Positions 33,212-36,243 of a stretch of 39,817 bases of DNA are shown here, in pieces (the first letter of the stretch is position 1; the number at the start of each line of letters is the position of its first letter). The notes beneath the pieces were generated by a model. That model was not told the origin of the DNA, ran no database searches, and saw only the letters and a program-made list of their open reading frames with translations. The stretch lies in contig LGFT01000030.1 in the NCBI GenBank assembly GCA_001509375.1, forward strand, positions 1-39,817, given 5' to 3'. Origin of the DNA: Methanothrix harundinacea. GTDB taxonomy: Archaea; Halobacteriota; Methanosarcinia; Methanotrichales; Methanotrichaceae. The translations under genes were made by a program, and so were the position numbers.

Positions 33212-35539
<2,328 letters not shown>

Positions 35540-35550
35540 CGATCCGCCTT

Positions 35551-36036
35551 TCAATGGTTTGTCGTCAGTTTTGTTCCGCATTCTCCCGACTCCGGGATGC
35601 TATTAGCAGAGCTCCGGGCATGGCCCATCCCCAGCTTCTTCAGAATGATCCTTATTTGCTTAGGGGTGTACTCGACGCCGAACTCCTTATTTATGAGATC
35701 TTTGACCTCGCTGGTGGTCCAGCGGTCTCGCTGAATAAGAAGGATTTTCAGCTGCTCTTTTTGAACTTCCGAGAGCTTTGTAGGCCTTCCGCCTCCGTGC
35801 CTCGGTATCAGCTCCTCGTAGCCGCCGTCGTTCCACTTCCTCTGCCAAGTATATCCCACGCTCTTGGTAATGCCTACTAGATGAGCTGAGGTCTCAACAC
35901 TGAAGCCCTGATACCGGTATCTGATGAAGCGCAGCCTCTTCAGAATCCGGGAATACTTCTCTAATTCTTTTATCCTGAAATCGAGCTCCTCGGGCGCCAT
36001 ACATCTCTGTATGGAGACCTGCTCCGGCTTGGGCAT
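35551..36036 (-). CDS. IS630-type helix-turn-helix protein without a transposase catalytic domain
   Basis: A 161-residue ORF matching the N-terminal DNA-binding part of IS630/Tc1-like transposases. First helix-turn-helix: YQGFSVETSAHLVGITKSVG. Second, after RHGGGRPTKLSE: RWTTSEVKDLINKEFGVEYT and KQIRIILKKLGM. It ends soon after (IPESGECGTKLTTNH), and no DDE catalytic half was found next to it. It stands 11 bp before ectA on the same strand, so it is the first gene of an ect transcript. Either a transposon remnant or a recruited regulator; the sequence cannot decide. Confidence 0.8.
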   Translation of the reverse strand: MPKPEQVSIQRCMAPEELDFRIKELEKYSRILKRLRFIRYRYQGFSVETSAHLVGITKSVGYTWQRKWNDGGYEELIPRHGGGRPTKLSEVQKEQLKILLIQRDRWTTSEVKDLINKEFGVEYTPKQIRIILKKLGMGHARSSANSIPESGECGTKLTTNH

Positions 36037-36051
36037 GGACTACGGTTGAAA

Positions 36052-36065
36052 TTAATACGTATTAA
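36052..36065. promoter_or_regulatory. Perfect palindrome TTAATACGTATTAA at the ect promoter
   Basis: A 14-bp perfect palindrome begins 16 nt upstream of the ATG of the helix-turn-helix ORF. On the minus strand TATTAATTTC overlaps it and could be the TATA box, predicting a nearly leaderless transcript; no ribosome binding site is seen before that ATG. A regulator bound here would block transcription of HTH-ectABC. Confidence 0.5.
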
Positions 36066-36210
36066 GTGTTTGGTTCTAAGAAGATAATTTTGTTTTTGAA
36101 CAAATATAGTTGTTTATGGTATGTGACTTTTTCGAAGGCGTCTTCTCTCTTTCCTCAGAGCAGAGCCAGCGAACTCTAAATCGGATGGTCTCCCAAAAAG
36201 AGGCGGCAAA

Positions 36211-36243
36211 TTTTGACAGGTCTGGCTCCCAGACCTGTCAAAA
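36211..36243 (-). terminator. Strong hairpin downstream of the rhodanese-like gene
   Basis: TTTTGACAGGTCT (36211-36223), loop GGCTCCC, AGACCTGTCAAAA (36231-36243): a perfect 13-bp stem about 20 nt after the stop at 36262. It is probably a transcription terminator; an insertion-sequence end is an alternative. Confidence 0.55.

Follow-up and report, generated by a model that had tools for sequence, protein, structure and literature searches.

We conclude that the gene in front of ectABC in the window analysed here, a 39,817-nucleotide stretch of Methanothrix harundinacea (contig LGFT01000030.1, assembly GCA_001509375.1), is probably the orfA of a two-ORF IS630 element, left without its catalytic half and fixed before ectABC together with the left end of the element, and that its product probably serves as a TIR-binding autorepressor of ect. 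Judged from sequence, it seems that a transposon has become a genetic switch in this archaeon. The HTH gene is linked to ect, and in Methanocrinis genomes the candidate site is confined to the front of ect genes; that the HTH protein controls ect transcription is what we infer.

Ectoine is a salt-stress protectant. The ect unit has the order HTH-ectA-ectB-ectC, with all genes on the same strand. The HTH gene (35551..36036, minus strand; 161 aa) starts with the ATG at 36036 and ends with the stop codon at 35551-35553, and it is followed by ectA (diaminobutyrate acetyltransferase; 35024..35581, minus), placed by a profile match and its conserved start, ectB (diaminobutyrate aminotransferase; 33697..35016, minus; Aminotran_3), and ectC (ectoine synthase; 33212..33700, minus; Ectoine_synth). 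This arrangement bears out the sequence-only reading that put the HTH gene first in the unit, in the position of a regulator. The same reading left 11 bp between the HTH gene and ectA, which had to be corrected: such a gap reaches the ATG at 35539, but the start that is conserved for ectA lies at 35581, an ATG preceded by GGGAGA; translation from it gives an EctA of 185-187 aa, and the overlap with the HTH gene is then 31 bp. The overlap is 31 bp in the window's genome (G000), G002, and G008, 28 bp in G003, and 4 bp (ATGA) in G006. By comparison of starts, the PESGEC codons of the HTH tail (35578..35595, minus), conserved in six Methanocrinis genomes, double as ribosome-binding site and start of ectA (GGGAGA followed by ATG, start codon 35581-35579), and PESGEC is kept in an otherwise variable tail because its codons carry that ribosome-binding site. 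A hairpin with a 15-bp stem lies behind the upstream rhodanese gene (36211..36243, minus; −24 kcal/mol, z −3.65), and a different hairpin is found at the equivalent place in other species. This hairpin is probably the terminator of the rhodanese gene and sets the HTH-ect unit apart from it, which suggests that the unit is transcribed on its own.

The HTH protein scored above the Pfam cut-offs for HTH_32, HTH_33, HTH_29, and HTH_23. It lacks the DDE part, because only positions 1-112 of the 299 in the NCBIfam profile transpos_IS630 (NF033545) matched it (E 8e-24); neither a DDE catalytic domain nor an orfB was detected for the gene in the ORF list or with the NCBIfam profile, and ectA overlaps its 3' end. 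The ORF, the Pfam domains, and the profile coverage agree with its earlier description as an IS630-type double-HTH ORF without a DDE domain. The AlphaFold model consists of two three-helix domains, at residues ~15-71 (35824..35994, minus; helices 15-42, 47-54, and 58-71; HTH_23/HTH_29) and ~90-134 (35635..35769, minus; helices 90-102, 108-119, and 125-134; HTH_33), with a GGGRPTK linker between them (residues 81-87; 35776..35796, minus). Residues G82, G83, R84, and P85 of the linker were invariant in the alignment of ten ect-linked HTH proteins, and we take the linker to be AT-hook-like and to resemble that of paired and Tc1-mariner domains. The nearest PDB folds found with Foldseek were Pax paired domains, Mos1 transposase, and the SETMAR DNA-binding domain on the Hsmar1 TIR (7s03), all weak matches (E >= 0.01, TM ~0.3) to what is a flexible two-domain model. 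No MarR domain was found with Pfam or NCBIfam, the MarR matches in the PDB were weak and insignificant, and a PDB sequence search returned no significant relative. The HTH gene is single-copy in the window's genome.

The best-conserved stretch upstream of the HTH gene comprises 34 columns (36042-36075) with 92% pairwise identity among eight species, most other upstream sequence being well below this value. It coincides with the candidate TIR-derived promoter/operator block AACCAAACACTTAATACGTATTAATTTCAACCGT (36042..36075, minus), defined by its conservation, by an IS630 TIR match at −41, and by its occurrence only before ect genes. Within it lies the perfect palindrome TTAATACGTATTAA (36052..36065), already noted in the sequence-only reading as promoter-like, whose arms are conserved in the eight species and which overlaps the presumed TATA box. 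The HTH transcript is likely leaderless, because there is no Shine-Dalgarno motif before the HTH start, and its TATA box would lie inside the palindrome region. A search for the regulon of the candidate site, by sequence pattern only, returned near-matches solely before ect genes in nine of nine Methanocrinis genomes, one per genome and, in G000 and G007, another at the second ect copy; the reversed-pattern control gave 0. The putative operator is recognised by sequence similarity over 22 bp; this stretch is AT-rich and includes a presumed TATA box, and the GAACCAAACA part of it is not generic. Most Methanocrinis species share a further conserved element, AGTTAAATAAATTGTGGTTGCTTAAACGCAA, which lies upstream of the candidate operator at ~50-85 bp from the HTH start (alignment A2, columns ~150-180) and is weaker in the window.

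Comparison with mobile elements indicated where both protein and promoter come from. The nearest homologues of the HTH protein outside ect loci are the orfA proteins of two-ORF IS630 elements, in which the DDE motifs are encoded by orfB in another frame. The ends of these elements are true inverted repeats, for example ATTATAGTCCAGAACCAAACATTTATAACTTATA and ATTATAGTTAAGAACCTAACATTTCTAACTTATA. The ect promoters align without gaps to the left TIR, at an equal distance from the start codon, as in G003 (TTGATTAGAACCAAACATTTAATACGTATTAA) versus the element (TATAGTCCAGAACCAAACATTTATAACTTATAA). A PWM of the inner 22 bp of the TIR, built from IS ends alone, had its best match at −41/−42 in 11 of 11 ect promoters tested (P<=0.002 each); the tip of the mobile TIR, TATAGT, has been lost from the ect promoter, and the background scan with the PWM found no second TIR at the ect loci. 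In the tree, the 11 ect-linked HTH proteins formed one group among the IS orfA proteins with moderate support (88/84). Related full IS630 elements are present in the genus and family, for example L019 in G002, and no full-length IS630 of this type is present in the window's genome. The descent of both the HTH protein and the promoter from an IS630-type element, the promoter being the inner part of the TIR at its original spacing, is well supported by these sequence comparisons. In the archaeal IS630 elements L061 and L064-L068, the two ORFs (orfA, ~160 aa; orfB, ~185 aa) lie in different frames, which suggests programmed frameshifting.

The HTH protein was found in eight of the nine Methanocrinis species genomes of the genus sample (67-88% identity), always between the rhodanese/aldolase block and ect, and the HTH-ectABC synteny was found in six of these genomes. 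The identical HTH-ect order recurs in two other Methanotrichaceae genera (L062, L063) and in a distant 'Methanomicrobia' MAG, Zod_Metabat.342 (L115), so that the pairing is known from 11 loci in four lineages; ten intact orthologues span three genera of the family. The remaining ect clusters in the phylum (L186, L187, L189-L198) had no HTH gene, and scans of the upstream region, made for a part of them, found no TIR-like promoter. By the Nei-Gojobori method, with dS values of 0.3-1.0, dN/dS was 0.13-0.26 for the HTH gene and 0.10-0.19 for its domain, compared with 0.15-0.32 for ectA, 0.16-0.32 for ectC, and 0.20-0.38 for the rhodanese gene. The HTH gene is thus under purifying selection at a level like that of ectA and ectC. 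The sequence-only reading had named the same pairing in other ect-containing archaea and a measure of selection as checks on its proposal of a domesticated transposase fragment, and had held that full IS630 copies with the same N-terminus, together with a lack of conservation at ect, would point to a chance remnant; no such copy exists in the window's genome, and the pairing, the dN/dS values, and the TIR-like promoter confined to ect support domestication.

Several genomes have lost or damaged parts of the unit. G005 has lost the HTH gene by deletion; what is left of it, namely the promoter, the start codon, and the first ~25 codons, is joined in frame to ectA, which as a result encodes a 236-aa EctA (L034:6831-7541, minus). 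In Methanothrix G040 a similar promoter is separated from ectA by an HTH pseudogene (74% DNA identity, E 4e-17), and in M. soehngenii (G015) the HTH gene is gone and the promoter block alone remains; in promoters of the M. soehngenii type the TIR PWM is not significant alone (P 0.08-0.14), and the block AAACCCAAACAYTTAA is visible. The HTH protein is not essential for keeping ect, because the promoter survives without it in some lineages. The reverse case is G007 (MAG 280, CP086218; L016:7280-7760 and L208): here the HTH gene is intact, whereas the ectA next to it has been lost by deletion and ectB is reduced to a pseudogene. A second ect copy in this genome, promoter-ectB-ectC, carries the same promoter and is split at runs of N, which are assembly gaps; a splitting of ectB by rearrangement was considered and rejected, since the pieces belong to two ect loci, the second broken by these gaps. 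No ectA was found anywhere in G007, in agreement with PMC9128505. The HTH gene is intact in G001 as well, with the cis ect genes decaying. The G007 pattern is as expected of a regulator that would also work in trans; the time over which G001 and G007 have kept the HTH gene may be too short to demonstrate a trans function. The window's genome has a second, truncated ect copy (G000:C1:13122-13146; L105, L106). It consists of the promoter and a 243-aa ectB piece, lacks both HTH and ectA, and adjoins a sodium:neurotransmitter-symporter-type gene; the only ect locus found in G005 has the same neighbourhood.

In the mechanism we favour, the TIR-derived site, extending across the presumed BRE/TATA box, would still be bound by the two HTH domains; with the protein in place, TBP/TFB would be blocked, so that the HTH gene and ectABC, which overlaps it, would both be repressed. 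An osmotic cue, such as a rise in ionic strength, would loosen this binding and allow ectoine to be made, and the overlap of the HTH stop with the ectA start would couple translation of the two genes. One could also envisage the same domesticated protein and site acting to activate ect, given that the site starts ahead of the presumed TATA box, a position that could also recruit TBP; the site covers the TATA region too, however, and the ect genes and promoter are kept in lineages without the protein. The latter point (G005, G040, and G015) argues against an obligate activator, and we regard activation as fairly unlikely. Retention of the promoter without HTH in these three genomes and in the second copy of G000 would also suit a history in which the transposon end was recruited as the ect promoter and the HTH protein is a passenger or minor autoregulator slowly being lost. 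The dN/dS of the HTH gene, however, equals that of ectA and ectC, ten intact orthologues persist in three genera, and the gene remains intact in G001 and G007 despite the decay of the cis ect genes, which makes this history unlikely.

The related full IS630 elements of the genus and family, such as L019 in G002, raise another prospect, that the protein is an immunity-like inhibitor that occupies their TIRs and blocks transposition, its place before ect being incidental. We consider this quite improbable, as no such element is found in the window's genome, the conserved site occurs only before ect genes, and the linkage to ect is conserved across several genera. Least credible is the other option of the sequence-only reading, that the gene is a neutral scar left by the element with which ect arrived. 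The clear transposase ancestry and the decaying copies in Methanothrix would fit a scar, but synteny conserved in eight of nine species, intact frames, and purifying selection, with dN/dS well below 1 over dS values of 0.3-1.0, contradict it, and no second TIR was found at the ect loci; the synteny and dN/dS led us to reject it.

The ect unit may not be the sole instance of a domesticated set. A class-wide search uncovered a 136-138 aa homologue of the HTH protein that almost every Methanococcoides- or Methanohalophilus-like genome has in one copy, as does one Methanosalsum-like genome. At all 11 loci examined (L137-L145, L151, L152; for example L137:4424-4834, plus, and L145:4673-5089, minus), the gene is divergent to mtbC-mtbB (dimethylamine methyltransferase) and has no orfB. 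These genes have TIR-like promoters at −40/−42 and dN/dS values of 0.06-0.14, and their products form their own tree group (98/91); we conclude that they are a second domesticated set. A single clade of the ect- and mtb-linked proteins was neither shown nor rejected (AU p 0.35), and both a shared and an independent domestication are compatible with the tree. Stand-alone homologues in two Methanosarcina-like genomes (L148:1218-1634, plus; L149:4283-4708, minus) are each followed by the same GNAT-like gene of ~212 aa, which is possibly a third domesticated pair. The PWM found no TIR-like promoter at the solo homologues L146, L148, and L149 of Methanosarcina- and Methanosalsum-like genomes. We give about an even chance to the broader proposal that methanogens have repeatedly made IS630 elements into modules of regulator plus operator, with the DNA-binding half as transcription factor and the element end as promoter/operator (ectABC in Methanotrichaceae, mtbCB in halophilic Methanosarcinaceae, and perhaps the GNAT-like gene in Methanosarcina).

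Among known systems, the ect-linked HTH shares with the IS630/Tc1/mariner transposases, here the two-ORF archaeal IS630, the bipartite N-terminal HTH, the GGRPxK linker, and a TIR-like site ~41 bp before the start. Unlike them, it has no DDE domain or orfB, no right TIR, and no TATAGT tip, and it is present in a single copy at a constant place. The mtbC-linked genes belong to the same family and are likewise DDE-less, constant in place, and provided with a TIR-like promoter, but they form a separate tree group, have another target operon, and are divergent rather than co-transcribed; they were not found in the literature searched. Bacterial ect regulators are MarR-type EctR proteins, and the EctR repressor binds at the ect promoter (PMC5924519). 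EctR is the best known of the regulators in bacteria. Like the HTH gene, the genes for EctR and CosR, both MarR-type, lie directly upstream of ectABC. The archaeal HTH protein differs from them in its unrelated fold and origin, in the overlap of its gene with ectA and its apparent membership in one unit with it, and in a candidate operator derived from a transposon end. The Pax paired domain and the SETMAR DNA-binding domain are, like the ect-linked HTH, captured DNA-binding domains of the IS630-Tc1-mariner superfamily with catalysis lost, and the ect-linked HTH is under purifying selection. The SETMAR structure was solved on its TIR (7s03), whereas binding of the ect-linked HTH to a TIR-type site is predicted. 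The latter is, unlike Pax and SETMAR, archaeal, stand-alone, and linked in cis to one metabolic operon, the promoter of which would be the TIR itself.

The passages found on ectoine in the Methanocrinis/Methanothrix papers (PMC10598746, PMC9128505) do not mention a regulator, and those of the paper on HdrR, a winged-HTH regulator (PMC11218639), showed no link to the ect-linked family. A review of recruited prokaryotic mobile elements (PMC8987985) gave no hit for IS630. The family was otherwise not found in the literature searched, subscription papers being outside its scope, and its novelty is provisional. No regulator of archaeal ectoine synthesis has been described in this literature. Going beyond the sequence-only reading, our analysis adds the TIR origin of the promoter, the overlap with ectA, and the second domesticated set at mtbC. 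It also provides a defined 25-bp site and a 161-aa protein, with G005, M. soehngenii, and G040 as natural knock-outs for comparison. The regulator and its candidate operator apparently arrived together as a transposon end, and a regulatory circuit would have been born in a prokaryote in one step, in parallel with Pax and SETMAR in animals.
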